Notes under the pieces: model-generated
Databases searched by the model: none
Told to the model about the DNA's origin: nothing
The model's input: only the letters and a program-made list of their open reading frames with translations
From: Blautia sp. An249
Lineage (GTDB): Bacteria > Bacillota > Clostridia > Lachnospirales > Lachnospiraceae
Reading direction: 5' to 3'
Length of the DNA stretch: 64,000 nt
Assembly: GCF_002159835.1 (NCBI RefSeq)
Contig: NZ_NFJL01000002.1
Location: forward strand, 310,001 to 374,000
Position numbers and translations under genes: made by a program
In this document: piece after piece, positions 52,595 to 62,729 of the stretch
Position numbering within the stretch: position 1 is the stretch's first letter
Layout: every line of letters starts with the position of its first letter

Positions 52595-52981
52595 ATGGAA
52601 AGTGCAAAGAATAGAAAGACAAAAATCACACGTTTGTTTAACAAAACAGTAGAAAATATGCGAGTTCTCGGCACATTCCGAAAGAAATTTGAAGCCTCCG
52701 TAAGGAGATACGCAGAGCTTGCAATCCAATATGAAATTTTGAGTGATAAGTGGTATGAAGATGGCTGTAAGATAACGGAGAAGTATACAAACAAAAATGG
52801 CGCCACCAATTTAAGGAAGACGGCTCTTTACATGGCGATGGAAAACCTGCGGAAAGAGCTCATAGACATGGAAAATACTTTCGGGCTGACTCCGAAGGGG
52901 CTTAGGCAAATAAAAGCCAAAGGCCTGGAAGAAAAGAAAACAAGTGCTTTGGATGCGGCACTGGAGCGGATGAGTGAATAA
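52595..52981 (+). CDS. Phage terminase small subunit, P27 family
   Basis: A 128-residue DNA-recognition subunit for phage packaging. It has the P27-type helical pattern: VRRYAELAIQYEILSDKWYEDG in parts, then MENTFGLTPKGLRQIKAKG near the end, a common C-terminal motif. AAAGGGGG precedes the ATG. The large subunit starts within its last codons. Confidence 0.82.
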   Translation: MESAKNRKTKITRLFNKTVENMRVLGTFRKKFEASVRRYAELAIQYEILSDKWYEDGCKITEKYTNKNGATNLRKTALYMAMENLRKELIDMENTFGLTPKGLRQIKAKGLEEKKTSALDAALERMSE

Positions 52982-54197
52982 GTATAAAAATTGGGATACT
53001 GTTTTTCAGTATGCTGAGGACTGTATATCCGGGAAACGGGTGGCGAACAAATACCGGATAAAGGCATGCCAAAGATTTTTGGAAGATTATGAGAGTGGGA
53101 GATACGACTTTGATCCGAAAGATGCGGAATTTGTTATCCGAATCATCGAAAACACCATTTGCCACCAACAGGGAGAAGACAAGGACGGTGTGCCATTGCG
53201 CGGAAGACCGTTCCTGTTGATGGATTTCCATAAATTCATTATATATAATATTCTTGGATTTTACATGAAAGACACCAGAATCAAACGATTCCATGAGTGT
53301 CTTGTTTTTATACCCAGAAAAAATGTAAAAACTAGTTTTGCCGGTGCACTTGCATACGCCCTAGGGCTTTTGTATCGATTATCAGGGACTAAAATCTATG
53401 TTGTGGCAGCGGCGCTGAAGCAGACATTGGAGACGTACAACTTTGTAAAATACAACATAATAAGAATGGGGGAATGGGATGAAGACGGCGGACATTTTCA
53501 TATTATCGACAACAACAATGAACATTCTTTAAAAGCTGAGATTAGCGGAGGATTGATTGAATTAAATGCCCTGGCGGCAAACCCGGACGCACAGGATTCC
53601 TTTAACTGCAATATTGCTATTGCGGATGAGATCCACGCCTTCAAAAAGCCCAAGCAGTACACACTGTTTAAAGAGGCAATGAAGGCCTACCGGAATAAAT
53701 TGATGATCGGGATTTCAACAGCAGGTGATGATCCAAACAGTTTTTTAGCGCAGCAGGTTGCATATGGGAAGCGTGTCCTTGATAAGCAGGTAGAGAATGA
53801 ACAGTATTTTTTCTTCATCTGTGAAGCTGACCCAGTAAAAACAGAGGAAGGAAAAGAATATATCGACTTTATGGATCCGAAATCCCAGGAGATGGCAAAT
53901 CCGGCTTACGGAGAATCCGTTCAGCCGGAAGAGTTGATGGAAGAAGCCAGACAGGCGCGGGACAATCCGCAGCTTCGCAAAGATTACTTTGCGAAATCCC
54001 TGAACGTATTTACCAGTGCCATGGACGCCTATTTCGATATGGCGGTCGTGCGGGCTTCGGATGAGAAATACAACTGGACATTGGAGGAACTGGCAAAGCT
54101 GCCGATTAACTGGTATGGTGGAGCTGATTTATCAAAGATGTATGACTTAACCGGGACTGCACTTCACGGGAGATATAAAGCGTGTCAATGGACTTAG
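52974..54197 (+). pseudogene. Phage terminase large subunit, 3' end lost
   Basis: The first 400 residues match the ATPase and start of the nuclease part of a large terminase: ATPase loop FIPRKNVKTSFAGALAYALG, Walker B IAIADEIHAF, motif GISTAGDDPNSFLAQQ, then WYGGADLSKMYDLTG, which holds the first nuclease Asp. At about 54,180 the sequence changes to an unrelated minus-strand fragment and the frame stops at 54,197. About a quarter of the usual protein, with the other nuclease acids, is missing. It starts at GTG, overlapping the small subunit. Confidence 0.85.
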
Positions 54198-54330
54198 CAT
54201 TAGAGGAAGATACAGCTGACCCGGATGCAGTCGTAATGAAAGCGTCAAACCCGGCTGCCTTGACCTTTCTCATCATTGCCTCTGCGTTGGCCTTGACACT
54301 GTACGCGCCGACCTGTACCTTGTAGACGCT
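54181..54330 (-). pseudogene. Endolysin tail fragment (SPOR domain)
   Basis: On the minus strand VYKVQVGAYSVKANAEAMMRKVKAAGFDAF (parts) is a SPOR peptidoglycan-binding repeat as found at the C-terminus of phage amidases, followed by NAKSIDTL, the beginning of a Cpl-7-type repeat that is cut at about 54,181. Both ends are truncated. It has no start codon of its own. Confidence 0.7.
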
Positions 54331-54505
54331 CCATACGGGAGATTTCCTTCCCAAGGTCGGAGATTTCCTGCTCCATGCGGGAATAGGTGGCGTCATCCTC
54401 AGCGGACAGCACACCCTTATCAGTCCTGTGGGAATCCAGGAATGCCTTCGCCGCTTCCCATGCCTTTGCCCTTTTTTCTCTCATTTCTAAAATCGTCATA
54501 GCCAT
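54326..54505 (-). pseudogene. Major capsid protein, N-terminal fragment
   Basis: The frame starts MAMTILEMREKRAKAWEAAK and runs through YSRMEQEISDLGKEISRMERL, the N-terminal scaffold helix of HK97-type capsid proteins with the start preserved. It breaks at about 54,330 and reads on in the wrong frame into the endolysin fragment. The rest of capsid, head-tail and tail genes are gone. Confidence 0.75.
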
Positions 54506-54512
54506 GTCCTCC

Positions 54513-55253
54513 TTAAAATCTTAATAAATCAAGCCGCTCGTAGAGGCTGTCTACGCTGCGGCCTTCCGGTTCGGTTTTCGGTTTCGTTTTGCATTTCGCC
54601 GCGATCTTATCCATGAGGGAGTTGACCACGGCGGCTTTAGAATAAAGCATGGTGACCGCTGGCGGCTCCATGTCCTCTGGCAGTTCTGTCCTTCCCAGAA
54701 TCCCATCGGCAAATCCAAGCTCCACCGCCTTATGGGCATCCATCCAGGTTTCCGCATCCATGAGATGGGAGAGCTTTGCACGAGACAACCCCGTCTTGAT
54801 CTCATAGGCATTGATGATGGAGTCTTTTACACTGGATAACATCTCAATGGCCTTCTGCATCTCAGCGGAATCTCCCCATGCAACCGTAGCCGGGTTATGC
54901 ACCATCATCATCCCCACCGGGGAGATCAGCACCTTTGTGCCTGCCATCGCAATGACAGAAGCAGCGCTTGCCGCAATGCCGTCAATCTTGACCGTCACGT
55001 CATGGGGATAATCCATCAGCATGTTATAGATCTGGGCTGCCGCCACGCAGTCCCCACCGGGTGAATTGATCCAGACGGTGATATTGCCGGATCCTGCCAT
55101 CAGTTCCTCTTTAAAAAGAGCCGGCGTGATATCATCATCAAACCAGCTCTCCTCGGCGATTGTGCCGTTTAAGAACAGCGTTCTCCCCACTGTTTTCGTC
55201 TGATTCTCCTGGTCCGTCACCGTTCTGTTCTTCCACTTCCAGAACTTCTTCAT
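54513..55253 (-). CDS. ClpP-like phage head maturation protease
   Basis: A 246-residue S14-family prohead protease: GNITVWINSPGGDCVAAAQIYNML, catalytic Ser in IDGIAASAASVIAMAG near residue 98, catalytic His in MMMVHNPATVAWG near 123, Asp downstream. It cleaves the scaffold part of the capsid protein. ATG at 55253 follows AAAGGAGGAAGG. It overlaps the portal gene end by 116 bases in another frame. The frame is intact although its capsid substrate is truncated. Confidence 0.88.
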   Translation of the reverse strand: MKKFWKWKNRTVTDQENQTKTVGRTLFLNGTIAEESWFDDDITPALFKEELMAGSGNITVWINSPGGDCVAAAQIYNMLMDYPHDVTVKIDGIAASAASVIAMAGTKVLISPVGMMMVHNPATVAWGDSAEMQKAIEMLSSVKDSIINAYEIKTGLSRAKLSHLMDAETWMDAHKAVELGFADGILGRTELPEDMEPPAVTMLYSKAAVVNSLMDKIAAKCKTKPKTEPEGRSVDSLYERLDLLRF

Positions 55254-56385
55254 CGGTTCCTTCCTCCTTTCCAGCCCCGGACGCCGCAAAGATTCCTGCG
55301 TCCTTCAGCTTTGTCATATTTCCATTGATCAGGTACAAATCGCCGCCTTCCTCCGCCGGGATGCGGTCCAGGTTTTCCAACTCCCGAATATCGTTGGCGC
55401 TCATCCAGCCGTTCTGCCTGCCCACAGCGTAGCCGTTCATGCGGCTTGCATAATCGCCCCGCAGGAGCCCTTCCACGTTGAAGCGGACAAAATACCGCTT
55501 TTTCTCATCCGCAGAAAACAGGGTCCTTTGGATGGACTGCTCCCAGCGCACCAGCCAGGGTTCCAGGGTGTATTTCACAAACTCCAGGGACTGCTGCTCA
55601 ATGTTGGAGAAGCTGGATTTCTCCAGGTCACCGACCATGTGGGGCGGCACCCGGAAGATCCTTGCGATCTCATTGATCTGGAACTTCCTTGTTTCCAGGA
55701 ACTGCGCCTGCTCCGGCGAGATGGAGATGGGCGTGTATTTCAGCCCCTCCTCAAGCACAGCGATCTTGTTGCTGTTTGCCGAGCCCCCGAACTGACTCAT
55801 CCAGGAATCCCGCACCCTCTGCGGGTCCTTGATGGTTCCCGGATGCTCCAGCACACCGCTTGGCTGCGCGCCATTTGCAAAAAATTTGGAGCCGTATTCC
55901 TCTGTGGCAATGGCAAGGCCGATTGCGTTCTTTGCCATCGCAATGGGGGAGTAGCCCACCAGCCCGTCAAAGCCAAGGCCTGGGATATGTAGCACATCCG
56001 AAGGCTTCAGCCGGACAATGCTGCCTTTAGAAATCGGCGCATCGTCTGCACTGGTAGTGTATTCGTAATAAAGCTGCCCCTTATCATCCCTGTCCACCGC
56101 CATCCGGTCAGGCATCAGGGGATAGAGCGCCATCACTTCACCGCGTCCGTTCCGGATGATTTGCGCATAGGCATTCCCCCATAGGAGAAGGTGCGTCATG
56201 AGCGTCTCCCTAGACACGAAGGAACTCATCTCCGGGTTCGGCTCATCATGGAGCAAAAGATACAGCGGATGGTCAAGGGCTTTCTCCTTGCCGCCGTCCT
56301 CCTTATAGCGGTAGAGGTGGAGTGGCAATCCCGCCACAGCCTCCGCCAGAATACGGACGCAGGAATACACCGCCGTCATCTGCAT
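55138..56385 (-). CDS. Phage portal protein, HK97 family (original start lost)
   Basis: The portal forms the ring through which DNA enters the head. From the internal ATG at 56385 the protein has 415 residues: MTAVYSCVRILAEAVAGLPLHLY, GLGFDGLVGYSPI, FRVPPHMVGDLEKSSFSNIEQQS (parts). The same frame continues upstream to about 56,502 with SIGLFRSRDKPQNRTTGSAYSF, which is the normal portal N-terminus, but no start codon remains there because the sequence changes at about 56,503-56,505 to the end of the ATPase gene. The internal start would drop about 40 residues. Confidence 0.85.
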   Translation of the reverse strand: MQMTAVYSCVRILAEAVAGLPLHLYRYKEDGGKEKALDHPLYLLLHDEPNPEMSSFVSRETLMTHLLLWGNAYAQIIRNGRGEVMALYPLMPDRMAVDRDDKGQLYYEYTTSADDAPISKGSIVRLKPSDVLHIPGLGFDGLVGYSPIAMAKNAIGLAIATEEYGSKFFANGAQPSGVLEHPGTIKDPQRVRDSWMSQFGGSANSNKIAVLEEGLKYTPISISPEQAQFLETRKFQINEIARIFRVPPHMVGDLEKSSFSNIEQQSLEFVKYTLEPWLVRWEQSIQRTLFSADEKKRYFVRFNVEGLLRGDYASRMNGYAVGRQNGWMSANDIRELENLDRIPAEEGGDLYLINGNMTKLKDAGIFAASGAGKEEGTDEEVLEVEEQNGDGPGESDENSGENAVLKRHNRRGELV

Positions 56386-56532
56386 CGCGGAACGTTCATT
56401 GACACGCTTGCCCGAAGAGCTTCCTCCAAAGAAAAAGCTGTAGGCACTGCCTGTAGTACGGTTCTGGGGCTTATCCCTGGAACGGAAAAGCCCGATGCTC
56501 TTCGAAAATAGAATTGTTGTTTTTTCTGGCGA

Positions 56533-57852
56533 TCAGCCGTCCAGCAGCCAATCCACAAGGTTCAAGGACTTGATACCGTCATAAGAGACGTCTAGCCCCG
56601 GCTCAAGGGACAGCACGATCTTTTCGTAATTATCCCGGATCTTTTGCAATGGGGCAAGCTCCCGTTTGCGGACATCCTCGCTCTGCATGGATTCCGTCAC
56701 CTGAATATAGAGTTTGTCGTCAGCCGTGGTGGCGATGAAATCCACTTCCTGATTGTCGATCTTCCCAATGGCCACATCATAGCCCCGGCGGAGCAGTTCG
56801 AAGTAGACCACATTCTCAATGGCGTGTCCGCTGTCCCGGTTGCGGAATCCCAGCAAGAAGTTCCGAAGCCCGATGTCCACGATATAGTACTTGCCCAGGG
56901 TGCGCAGGTATTCCTTGCCCTTGATGTCAAACCGCTTGATTTCATAAAAGAAGTAGCTTTCCAACAGTGCGGCGATATAGGCCTGCACCGTGTGGGTGCT
57001 GGGGGTTCCTCTGCGTTTACCATCCTCCAGGAGTCCTTCGTTCATCAGCGTGTTGCCAATAGAGGAAACTGAAACGCTGCTGCCAATGTTGTCCGCAAGG
57101 AACAGGACGATCTTACGCAGAAGCGCAGAGTCGGTGATCTGTCGCTGGCCGCGTCGTTTTTCCCGCTCCAGGATATCCCGCACCACCACGGTGGAGTAAA
57201 TGCCTTCCAGAAGGCTCAGGGCTTTTTCCTGATCCAGTCCGATATCCGCGATCCCAGGCATCCCGCCAAAACGCATATAGGCGTCAAATACTTCCCGCAG
57301 GTCATAGCGTTCGCCGTTTTTATCAAACACTTGCCGGTGAGTTCCGCCCAAGGCGCTGATGGTTTCCCGAACTTCAAAGTTGTGGAAGTCCAGGAACTCT
57401 CGGAAAGAGAGCGGCAACATTTTAATCTCCACGCACCGACCGGAGAGATAGGTGGAATACTCGGAGGACAGCAGGTAGGCGTTGGAGCCGGTAATGTAGA
57501 TGTCGCAGTCCAGATCCACCCGGAAGGAGTTGACCGCATCTTCCCAGGCATCGATTCGCTGCAGCTCGTCAAAGAAGAGGTACATCCGCTTGCCCGGAAC
57601 GGCTCGCTCCTTGACATAGTGGTACACCTCATCCGAGGTCATGCTCCGAAAATCGTGGGATTCAAAGTTCATCTCCACGATCTGTTCCTGCCCTATGCCG
57701 GTTTCCCGTAAATGCTGAATCATCAGCTTCAGTAGGCTGGATTTGCCGCAGCGGCGGATACCGGTGATGACCTTTACCGGTTCCGTGTCCTGAAAACCGA
57801 TGAGTTTTTTCAAGTATCGATCCCGGTTCTTGAGTTCATGTGATTCTATCAT
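56533..57852 (-). CDS. AAA ATPase with DUF4143 domain, inserted cargo gene
   Basis: A 439-residue protein: Walker A TGIRRCGKSSLLKLM near residue 30, Walker B YLFFDELQRI near 95, sensor TGSNAYLLSSEYSTYLSGR, and a C-terminal DUF4143 domain with nuclease-like IDNQEVDFIATT near residue 370. Family proteins are common in gut bacteria and archaea; their function is unclear. It has its own promoter (57876-57904) and AGGAGG. It sits between TerL and portal of a prophage, where no such gene belongs, and its insertion removed the portal start. Confidence 0.9.
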   Translation of the reverse strand: MIESHELKNRDRYLKKLIGFQDTEPVKVITGIRRCGKSSLLKLMIQHLRETGIGQEQIVEMNFESHDFRSMTSDEVYHYVKERAVPGKRMYLFFDELQRIDAWEDAVNSFRVDLDCDIYITGSNAYLLSSEYSTYLSGRCVEIKMLPLSFREFLDFHNFEVRETISALGGTHRQVFDKNGERYDLREVFDAYMRFGGMPGIADIGLDQEKALSLLEGIYSTVVVRDILEREKRRGQRQITDSALLRKIVLFLADNIGSSVSVSSIGNTLMNEGLLEDGKRRGTPSTHTVQAYIAALLESYFFYEIKRFDIKGKEYLRTLGKYYIVDIGLRNFLLGFRNRDSGHAIENVVYFELLRRGYDVAIGKIDNQEVDFIATTADDKLYIQVTESMQSEDVRKRELAPLQKIRDNYEKIVLSLEPGLDVSYDGIKSLNLVDWLLDG

Positions 57853-57875
57853 GGCGCATTCCTCCTGTCGTTCCT

Positions 57876-57904
57876 ATTATAGCACAAATTTTAGAAAAAA
57901 TCAA
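57876..57904 (-). promoter_or_regulatory. Promoter of the AAA/DUF4143 gene
   Basis: On the minus strand TTGATT, 17 bases, TATAAT. The stretch is AT-rich, unlike the phage genes around it. Confidence 0.75.
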
Positions 57905-57955
57905 ATTTGTTCTATTAACAGCATAAACTTTCTGTTTTCGACAAAAAATGCACTG

Positions 57956-59559
57956 TCAGATAAACAACAGACCACGGCTGTCATAAACCGAAGCGCCTGA
58001 ATCGTTCCCACAACGAATTGCACGATCAAGCCCCATAATGGTGGCGATTGCTCCATCTATTTTTTCTGTAGATTTTTCCTTGTCCGCTTTGATATTACCC
58101 GCCGGATCGGTACGGATGAAGATGTTATCCATCATCCACCGCATCACCGGGTGGCCGCCGTGGGCGATTTTCTGTTCCAGTACCAGCTTCATCAGTTCCT
58201 TGGTCGGCGGAGACATATCCTTAAAGCCCTGCCCGAAGGGAACGACTGTGAATCCCATGCCTTCCAGGTTCTGTACCATCTGCACAGCGCCCCAGCGGTC
58301 AAAGGCGATCTCCCGAATATTGACCCGCTCGCCCAACTGCTTGATGAATTTCTCAATGTAGCCGTAACTACATTGCCCTCAGTAGTCATCAGCGCACCTT
58401 GCCGTTCCCACAGGTCATAGGGAACATGATCTCTGTACACACGCAGGTCAAGTGTATCTTCCGGTATCCAGAAATAAGGCAGGATGTAGTATTTATCCTC
58501 CTCATCCAGCGGCGGAAACACCAGCACGAAGGCCGTAATATCCGTGGTAGAAGACAAGTCCAGCCCGCCGTAGCAGATGCGTCCTTCCAGATCGTCTTCG
58601 GAGACCGGAAACGCACAGGCGTCCCACTTGTCCATCGGCATCCAGCGGACAGACTGCTTTACCCACTGGTTTAGCCTAAGCTGCCGGAAAGCGTTCTCCT
58701 CGCCGGGATTCTGTTTCGCGGATTCACAGGCAGCCTCCACTTTGTCAATGCCGACCGTGATACCGAGAGAAGGATTGGCCTTTTTCCACACCTTCGGATC
58801 AGTCCAATCCTCATCAGGTTCCGCACCGTAAATGACCGGATAGAAGGTTGGATCGACCTTCCTGCCGTCGAGTATGTCCTGTGCTTTCTGGTGGACTTCA
58901 TAACAAATGGTGTTTGTATCATTTCCGGCAGTGGTAATCAGGAAATACAACGGCTGCATTCTGGCATCACCGGAGCCCTTAGTCATTACATCAAAGAGTT
59001 TCCGATTCGGCTGTGTGTGCAGCTCATCGAATACCACACCGTGTATATTAAAGCCATGCTTACTGTAGGCTTCAGCTGAGAGCACCTGATAGAAGCTGTT
59101 TGTTGGCTCGTAGATAATGCGTTTTTGAGAGGTCAGTATTTTGACGCGTCGATTCAGCGCCGGACACATTTTCACCATATCCGCAGCGACATCAAAAACG
59201 ATGGTGGCCTGCTGCCTATCAGCAGCGCATCCATAGACCTCGGCGCGTTCCTCACCGTCACCGCAGCAAAGGAGTAGGGCGACAGCAGCGGCCAGCTCTG
59301 ACTTTCCCATCTTCTTTGGAATTTCGATGTAGGCCGTATTGAACTGCCGGTAACCATTCGGCTTCAGGACACCGAACAGGTCGCGGATGATTCGTTCCTG
59401 CCAGTCGATCAGCTCGAAGGGCTTTCCTGCCCATGTTCCCTTGGTGTGGGTAAGCTGCTCGATGAACATCACTGCGAAGTCCGCCATTTTCTTACTGTAA
59501 TGCGAAGTCTCTGCCATGAAGCGGGTCGGTTTATAGTTTTTCAGTTTTCGCATTGGCAT
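57956..59559 (-). pseudogene. Phage terminase large subunit, frameshifted
   Basis: The first part runs from ATG 59559 (after AAAGGAGG): MRKLKNYKPTRFMAETSHYS, ATPase loop EIPKKMGKSELAAAVALLL, Walker B GVVFDELHTQPN, LITTAGNDTN, nuclease Asp in CYGGLDLSSTTDI. Near 58,365-58,370 the frame is lost after GNVV. The next frame continues with INIREIAFDRWGAVQM-like sequence (VNIREIAFDRWGAVQ), DNIFIRTDPAGNIK and the end at 57956. One missing base (or four) explains the break. No active enzyme is expected. Confidence 0.85.
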
Positions 59560-61464: not shown

Positions 61465-62729
61465 CTATACACTTGCCGTAGGAGATGTCTCGACTTCCTT
61501 TGCCAGAGCTGAATAAAGGATCTTTTCGCTGTTTCTTATTACATACACATTTTCCGTATCGCCGGTATTCTCCACATAGCGGCGAAGGATGACAGAGGCG
61601 TATTTTGGATCAAGCTCCATCATGTAGCAGATACGGTTCAGCTGCTCGCAGGCCATCAGTGTGGAGCCGGAGCCGCCGAAGGTATAATAACGACAGAATT
61701 CTCCTGAGTGGAGTTCTGAATAGGATAGCACAGAAGGTCGAGTGGCTTTGAGGTCGGGTGATCCTTATTGCGCTTTGGCTTATCGTAGTTCCAGATGGTG
61801 GTTTGCTTGCGGTCGGAGTACCACGGGTGTTTGCCGTTTTGTAAGAAACCGTAGAGCACAGGCTCATGCTGCCATTGGTAATCGGAGCGACCGAGTACGA
61901 GACTGTTCTTTACCCAGATGCATACACCAGCGAGATGGAAACCTGCGTCGATGAATGCTTTTCTGAAAGTGAGCCCTTCAGTATCTGCATGGAAGCAGTA
62001 AGCAGCTCCACCTTTTTCGAGGTGCTCAGCCATGTTCTTAAAAGCAGCCAGCAGGAAATTATAAAATTCCTCGCCCTTGAGAGAGTCGTTTTGGATCGCA
62101 AGGCCGTCTGAGGCTTTAAAGGATACGCCGTAGGGTGGATCGGTCAGAACAAGATTTGCTTTCTTGCCGTCCATGAGTTTCTCCACATCTTCTGGCGAGG
62201 TGGCATCTCCACACATGACTTTATGCTTGCCGACCGTCCAGATGTCGCCGAGCTCCACGAAGGAAGCTTTCTCAAGAGCAGCAGTGAGGTCAAAGTCATC
62301 ATCAGCGATATTTTTTTCATTCCCTGTGCCGAGCAGCTTATCCAGCTCACCGGCATCAAAGCCGAGGAGCGAGAGGTCAAAGGACTGATCCTGCAGGTCA
62401 GATAATTCGACCGACAGCATTTCCTCATCCCAGCCTGCGTTTAGTGCCAATTGATTGTCCGCAAGGATATATGCACGTTTCTGTGCTTCCGTCAGGTTTT
62501 CAGCAAAGACGCAGGGTACGGTTTCATAACCTTCCTCGCGGGCAGCCGTGATGCGGCCGTGACCGACGAGAATGTTATAATCTGAGTCAATAACAGCAGG
62601 GCTCACAAAGCCGAATTCCCGGAGAGAGGCGCGCAGCTGTGCGATCTGTTCTTTACTATGCGTCCTGGAATTTCGGGCATAGGGCACCAGCTTATCAATG
62701 GGTACCTGTTCTAATTTTTGTGTGTTCAT
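61465..62729 (-). pseudogene. ParB-domain DNA methyltransferase, frameshifted
   Basis: An N-terminal ParB-like domain (VPIDKLVPYARNSRTHSKEQ, ILVGHGRITAAREEG) is followed by a DNA N-methyltransferase with catalytic VLTDPPYGVSFKA near residue 195 and, in a second frame, TFGGSGSTLMACEQLNR, the SAM motif, then ELDPKYASVILRRY. The frames change at about 61,686: GTC GTT ATT then AT ACC TTC, one base short of an in-frame Asp codon. Order (catalytic before SAM motif) is beta class. Probably inactive. Confidence 0.85.

Follow-up and report, generated by a model that had tools for sequence, protein, structure and literature searches.

According to the accessible text of PMC12988326, PDC-S01 ranks fourth in frequency among the defences of prokaryotes, and the PDCs are unvalidated; in that of PMC13356809, PDC-S01 is the most frequent individual locus of a rumen survey. 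These parts of the two accounts mention neither a phage slot nor an operator, in contrast to the unit described here, which has a private palindrome and lies in a cargo slot. The closest parallel for the slot is found in P2, a temperate phage in which exchangeable defence and toxin-antitoxin cargo occupies a set site next to cos, with gpA on one side and the portal gene gpQ on the other. The phages and the place are different here: the slot lies between terL and portal within the head genes and often has a hairpin at its 3' border. Defence was tested for the P2 cargo and is a prediction for the terL-portal cargo.

The window, i.e. the whole stretch of DNA analysed, comprises 64,000 nucleotides from Blautia sp. 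An249. It shares the order terL, portal, Clp protease with Candidatus Heliusviridae (PMC9226167); the core-gene list, in the accessible part of that paper, says nothing of cargo in the terL-portal interval. Among the nine shared core genes of the family, these three were the only ones sought and all were seen in the window. The 3' part of the window terL reaches identities of up to 94% with gut phage records, and two fetched records are labelled Ca. Heliusvirales. In the accessible text of the literature searched, including PMC12988326, PMC13356809, PMC11318856, PMC9122126, and PMC9226167, neither a terL-portal cargo slot nor a DUF4143 operator is described. Both the terL-portal setting and the candidate operator are new for the known candidate family PDC-S01. 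The explanation that we favour, with moderate confidence, is that the gene forms a self-contained moron, a cargo unit housed in a slot for accessory genes that Heliusviridae-type phages have between terL and portal, with a predicted self-regulated role in defence or addiction.

The ATPase gene and its product

The gene lies on the minus strand between terL and portal, as annotated below:

56533..57852, minus strand: AAA_14 and DUF4143 ATPase gene (PADLOC PDC-S01), intact ORF of 439 aa
58192..59598, minus strand: 5' part of terL (ATPase and nuclease domains), frameshifted relative to the 3' part
57956..58336, minus strand: 3' part of terL in a separate frame; the TerL stop at 57956 borders the slot
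55138..56385, minus strand: portal ORF, taken from its first ATG in frame; the frame is open back to 56532

In the order of transcription, terL occupies two overlapping frames (59598-58192, 58336-57956) and is followed by the ATPase gene (57852-56533) and the portal frame. A previous reading of the sequence alone had placed an AAA/DUF4143 gene here, and its product indeed matches both Pfam domains above gathering score (AAA_14, E 6.7e-34; DUF4143, E 6.1e-15). The PADLOC profile PDLC04787 covers residues 6-438 (E 1.1e-152), which assigns the protein to PDC-S01 by family profile. A search of the protein against NCBIfam returned no match, and no solved structure was found by sequence at E 0.01. 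The Walker A and B motifs are intact, with G31, G36, K37, S38, D95, and E96 invariant among 46 aligned sequences, and these residues are likewise present in paralogs.

A first structure model was poor (mean pLDDT 64.1). A second, made with five more sequences, reached 74.6, with residues 200-221, 278-283, and 301-339 below 50. Foldseek ranked clamp loaders as the best matches of the first model and again placed them first for the second. The AAA+ domain (model residues 1-208) aligned with Cdc6/Orc1 (2qby_B; Z 13.8, rmsd 3.5, 189 aligned), Avs5 (9nc9_D; Z 13.6, rmsd 3.8, 161 aligned), and RFC (9peo_C; Z 13.6, rmsd 4.7, 178 aligned). Cdc6/Orc1, the clamp loaders, and the Avs STAND ATPases have the AAA+ fold in common with the protein at 11-16% identity, and since these matches tie within 1 Z, function cannot be drawn from the fold. 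No DNA-binding domain was found by fold in a list that covers residues 1-323, the middle region of the model being too weak; our guess would be a winged helix in the region preceding the C-terminal domain.

DUF4143 is, we assume, a member of the PD-(D/E)XK clan, and the modelled helix-strand order of the C-terminal domain is compatible with a restriction-nuclease fold. Among the distinct rows of 39 proteins, the C-terminal motif reads [EQ]-[VI]DF, then Q[VIS], and the catalytic D...(D/E)xK of active nucleases was not found. Because the lysine is missing from the ExK position, any cutting activity is doubtful. The second ATPase of one viral contig (L095) has IEVK at this position.

Loss of the portal start

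The portal frame resumes right after the ATPase stop and contains no ATG, GTG, or TTG before 56385, as the sequence-only reading had observed. It had further supposed that insertion of the gene removed the portal start. The comparison with a relative, L100, contradicts this and localizes the following features:

56493..56495, minus strand: junction of a 71-nt deletion, with one-base ambiguity, by comparison with L100
56494..56498, minus strand: GCATC, the 5' arm of a hairpin that relatives keep whole

L100 and the window are identical in the two flanks of a single clean 71-nt gap. The window deletion starts within the hairpin, and the missing 71 nt comprise what remains of the hairpin together with the ribosome site and the ATG of the portal gene, a stretch also retained in L012 and L013. 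The identical flanks, together with the stretch kept in these two loci, indicate that the portal start was lost in a later and separate deletion, and the ATPase gene was present before that loss. Nor is there support for the gene having broken the head operon, or for the proposal that disabled head genes keep the remnant as a carrier, given this separate deletion and given that the portal gene follows the ATPase gene in L093, L094, L095, L098, L099, and L105. In one IMG/VR contig (L092), both terL parts, the ATPase, the portal, the protease, and the second terL fragment are 100% identical in protein sequence to those of the window, and L092 is for this reason not independent evidence. By their coordinates, L093 and L039 carry terL in one frame, in contrast to two in the window.

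Further features of the window concern the state of the phage remnant. Another terminase pair, comprising a Terminase_4 small subunit and a large subunit with TerL_ATPase only, lies on the plus strand at 52595-54197 and meets the minus-strand head genes; this arrangement is probably a composite of two phage remnants. Downstream of the Clp-type protease, a short unassigned ORF and a SPOR-domain fragment lie on the minus strand at 54106-54505, where the head operon seems to be cut short, probably within the capsid gene. A minus-strand gene with ParB_N and N6_N4 methylase domains (61465-62729) seems, by reading of the sequence, to run on in a different frame at 61465-61731 and is apparently frameshifted.

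A cargo slot between terL and portal

Scanning IMG/VR with terL yielded 80 loci, the top-scoring ones of 600 or more matches, and 77 of the 80 had a usable terL end and portal. In this sample of best matches, terL and portal were adjacent in 41 contigs and separated by a longer gap in 36, and the ATPase was found in one (L105). A portal-based scan was likewise confined to the 80 top-scoring of 600 or more matches, so that counts from either scan are no census; its query was the portal of L105, which is itself an ATPase carrier. Pooling both scans with contigs found through the ATPase gave 157 viral loci. After removal of 18 lacking a usable terL-portal pair and of those with identical flanks (139 to 110), 51 adjacent and 59 longer-gap contigs remained, with near-copies among them and with each of the two scans contributing no more than its 80 top matches. 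Gaps were measured from the terL stop to a methionine inside the portal gene (adjacent, 110-146 nt; longer, 203-3359 nt), so the shortest of the longer gaps carry only some tens of extra bases. By eye, adjacent genes are roughly 8-25 nt apart with a ribosome site between them. An ORF of at least 60 aa is held by 48 of the 59 longer gaps, and 11 contain none of 60 aa passing the filter.

The terL-portal place is a cargo slot and not a site of fixed order that was broken once; the premise that head gene order is normally fixed at this point does not agree with the 51 adjacent and 59 longer gaps among the 110 contigs. As expected of moron cargo, the ATPase gene is optional, has its own predicted promoter, lies between conserved phage genes, and is absent in close relatives. 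The gene might alternatively serve its carrier phage, through packaging, head assembly, or late gene control, which would account for its site in the head operon. Its location between packaging and head genes and its AAA+ fold are in line with this. We nevertheless regard such a role as improbable, as most relatives do without the gene (51 of 110 adjacent; carried by one of 77 in the terL-based sample of 80 top matches), bacterial loci keep it where no portal was found, and unrelated cargo occupies the same place.

That cargo is diverse. The commonest filler is a PAPS reductase/SspD-like gene (11 of the 59 longer gaps), and a cluster of seven was taken for tail proteins by eye, its L129 member having no Pfam match. 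The DUF4143 ATPase fills seven gaps, a count that is no rate since six of the seven contigs came from the ATPase query. The remainder include RelB with ParE (four), HepT with MntA (one), AbiD (one), PDC-S29 (one), XRE-type HTH proteins (two, plus L125), an HNH-like protein below the Pfam cutoff (L219), and many that are unassigned. Six named phage records were compared at the slot. Streptococcus phage Javan191 carries DinJ and a toxin annotated as Doc, with a hairpin that looks similar by eye, and Javan105 carries a MerR-family regulator. In Terrisporobacter phage TPDSL_ph1, Gardnerella phage vB_Gva_AB1, and the two Ca. Heliusvirales records, the next gene follows terL directly, in one case annotated only as a hypothetical protein.

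Fillers also differ in their borders. First-placed PAPS reductase and tail-like genes start 8-15 nt past the terL stop and lack the hairpin. Where a unit brings its own leader, as do the ATPase, HepT/MntA, and two of four RelB/ParE pairs, its 3' end is commonly GCATC...GGTGCTTTT, after which come a spacer of similar kind and the ribosome site of the portal. This hairpin occurs in 17 of the 59 longer gaps vs. none of the 51 adjacent ones. It is present in 11 of 16 gaps whose first ORF is in sense and at least 80 nt from terL, compared to 4 of the 32 other ORF-holding gaps (Fisher p 1.5e-4, for a pattern chosen post hoc and uncorrected for kinship and near-copies). A common 3' border, combined with the terL 5' border, means that cassettes could be swapped by homologous recombination. 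In L095, two DUF4143 ATPases of different subfamilies are separated by a second terL 3' end (37 residues, 97%), an arrangement that looks like one such swap.

As a separate observation, the PAPS reductase/SspD-like filler (e.g. L142:3570-4349 and 10 similar loci) starts 8-13 nt past terL with no leader of its own.

Promoter and candidate operator

Upstream of the ATPase gene, the following elements were identified:

57876..57904, minus strand: ATPase promoter, TTGATT, 17 nt, TATAAT, with TG ahead of the -10 box; 10 of 12 consensus matches
57903..57930, minus strand: 28-bp near-palindrome, a candidate operator, overlapping the -35 box by two bases
57879..57891, minus strand: third half-site AAATTTGTGCTAT, overlapping the -10 box

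The promoter-like site, in line with the promoter named in the sequence-only reading, is kept in relatives. Three promoter-like sites occur in the upstream region, compared with 1.4 +/- 1.0 in shuffles, so the consensus is weak by itself and conservation is the better evidence for it.

The 28-bp palindrome has a single match in the window and in its own genome (G000). Genomes G006, G016, and G039 contain one match each, always at the ATPase gene, and in G014 the site was not found at one mismatch. Among loci of at least 73% identity with at least 100 nt upstream, a near-palindrome precedes the gene in 88 of 90; L059 scored too low, and L034 passed the score but was excluded as non-palindromic. 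It usually ends at or in the -35 box and is followed by the third half-site over the -10 box, the match in L091 differing from the site at the -35 box. In the 80 distinct sequences (81 minus L034), symmetric partners were paired in 80% of cells vs. 28-48% when slid, counting G-T as paired, and columns 11/18 and 12/17 covary; these figures are biased upward, as candidates were scored against one palindromic 28-mer. With the same bias, the covariation score was reached by 1 of 500 shuffles and the number of cells with both sides changed by 6 of 500. No signal came from counting the pairs in which both sides had changed, a count that 286 of 500 shuffles reached. The position at the -35 box marks the palindrome as a DNA site rather than a transcript element.

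Several paralog groups show a similar layout with different sequences. In these groups, from the same genus, the arms differ at or near the -35 box (GTTTTTGGA/TCCAAAAAC, TTTTTGCGG/CCGCAAAAA, GTTTGTAAAATC/GATTTTACAAAC, TTTCCCAAAATCAA/TTGATTTTGGGAAA), and the palindrome types include TTTTGCGG and GTTTTTGGA. Upstream inverted repeats scored above all 30 shuffles for 13 of 38 distant paralogs vs. 5 of 34 control genes (Fisher p 0.064), and some paralog groups have no upstream inverted repeat of this kind. The predicted operator is well supported near the window gene and suggestive in distant paralogs. A palindrome at the -35 box, similar in layout and different in sequence across several paralog groups, is a feature new to the PDC-S01 family. 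As the site is used once, beside a single gene, it is more in keeping with self-regulation than with control by a host regulator that serves many targets. These patterns suggest that the ATPase gene is self-regulated through the 28-bp palindrome, and we infer that the ATPase itself may be the binder.

In one DUF4143 paralog group (L258-L260, L266, and L267), the top inverted repeat is mostly close to the start codon and not at the -35 box, and it beats all shuffles only in L258.

Turnover, spread, and retention

On a tree of 102 portals, which leaves out the 8 of 110 contigs with fewer than 200 portal residues, the ATPase label needs five changes, and also five by the starred branches alone. 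Carriers neighbour adjacent-type relatives: L092 with L102 and L103, L093 with L120, and L095 with L223. The ATPase gene was gained or lost at least five times among these portals.

Most bacterial copies lie outside the terL-portal slot. Of 84 bacterial loci, 64 of which have at least 1000 nt on both sides, terL protein sequence persists upstream in nine and portal downstream in four; beyond these nine, L019 has a terL remnant at the nucleotide level. In L017, L019, L020, L083, and L005, the gene and its promoter stand beside terL remnants with no portal within the 1.5-4 kb flank. Marginal terL scars at L015, L021, L024, and L089 (18-24 nt matches) were left uncounted; the query included 12 nt of cargo. 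The sequence-only reading had stated that it would be refuted if the gene had a fixed position next to terL and portal of active phages. This holds only in part: the position recurs in predicted viral contigs, and in named phages all homologs (17 records) are less than 60% identical. Plasmids provided 232 records with a homolog, one at 60-80% identity and 231 below. A viral scan with the L009 paralog returned no match and one with the L002 paralog three loci.

Near-identical copies (95-100% identity) occur in loci named Mediterraneibacter, Blautia, Scatomonas, and Merdisoma. Such copies across different gut genera, together with the nuclease-like C-terminal domain, might indicate that the gene inserts itself by homing or transposition. 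This is the least probable of the explanations weighed here: no terminal repeats or conserved ends across insertions were seen among the relatives compared, the slot is bordered by the terL stop and by a hairpin that also accompanies unrelated cargo, and the catalytic ExK lysine is absent. Flanking repeats, which the sequence-only reading had suggested looking for, do not mark the gene as mobile by itself. A 12-bp inverted repeat, TCGAAAATAGAA/TTCTGTTTTCGA (56502-56513/57930-57941), resembles element ends, yet relatives do not keep it and it is put down to chance.

The gene has been retained as a protein-coding unit. Pairwise dN/dS against the window ATPase is 0.033-0.062 in 12 of 13 loci, with the thirteenth saturated and the values of L012 and L013 resting on about ten changes each; as pairwise values span the whole history, they show that the protein was kept and not when. 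The frame is open in 74 of 76 full-length copies, in a search that favours intact ones, and the two exceptions (L057, L059) may reflect faults in start estimation. One could read the gene as a neutral passenger in a dying prophage, since the window remnant is broken, with a frameshifted terL and no portal start. Already disfavoured, this reading is very improbable in view of the low dN/dS, which averages phage and host life, and of the open frames, albeit from a search that favours intact copies.

Predicted function

A role of the ATPase in defence or addiction is suggested by its family, its slot company, and its retention. The sequence-only reading had regarded the gene as cargo acting in defence or addiction; the cargo status and the promoter have held up, while for the function the company of toxin-antitoxins, AbiD, and PDC-S29 and the PADLOC assignment point in this direction. 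The gene could instead serve addiction only, as a single-gene stability module that is toxic if de-repressed and keeps the prophage remnant with no anti-phage effect. The slot is common to type II toxin-antitoxin pairs, and the frame is still open beside the terL remnants of L017, L019, L020, L083, and L005. Toxin-antitoxin operons are autoregulated, and the private candidate operator resembles theirs. Yet there is no second gene to act as an antitoxin: 469 flanking ORFs fell into 417 clusters, the largest present in 6 of 80 loci, and neither a conserved neighbour nor two adjacent co-evolving genes of a type II system were found in these loci. Addiction only is accordingly considered unlikely. 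Toxin-antitoxins are often anti-phage too, so the addiction and defence readings overlap.

In the favoured reading of a self-regulated cargo unit, the unit consists of a candidate operator with promoter, one ATPase gene, and, in relatives, a terminator-like hairpin, and it is bordered by the terL stop on one side and the ribosome site of the portal on the other. Cassettes would be exchanged by recombination within the terL 3' end and the hairpin/portal homology. In a lysogen, the unit would be expressed from its own promoter, and the hairpin would keep cargo transcription off the head genes. The ATPase protein would bind its own palindrome and repress itself. An infecting phage or lost repression would free the AAA+/DUF4143 protein, which would then counter phage growth, through superinfection exclusion or abortive infection, or act as an addiction factor. 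In the window copy, the 71-nt deletion later cost the portal its start. 

More tentatively, and at somewhat short of an even chance, PDC-S01/DUF4143 ATPases in general may be single-gene modules, each recognizing a private palindromic operator over its own promoter. The operators would have diverged in sequence by paralog group under a constant layout, an insulation that would allow several paralogs to coexist in one genome, and the modules would be traded via the terL-portal slot of Heliusviridae-type phages, bounded by terL and hairpin, and outlasting the phage. PDC-S01 is common yet unvalidated in the accessible accounts, and a one-gene unit with a candidate operator, empty and filled sites, and slot companions makes it directly testable. 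The terL-portal slot is also a simple place to seek more defence genes in gut phages.

Four hairpin-bearing cargo regions are unassigned or barely assigned (L127:6666-7610, L139:4118-4393, L216:3024-3752, L209:2732-3786) and are candidates for new defence or exclusion genes. Finally, a gene of another DUF4143 subfamily (L002-like) is found on a viral contig at L322:2501-3706, with apparent tail genes adjoining and its own GTTTTGCGG palindrome; this site is perhaps a second structural-operon slot.
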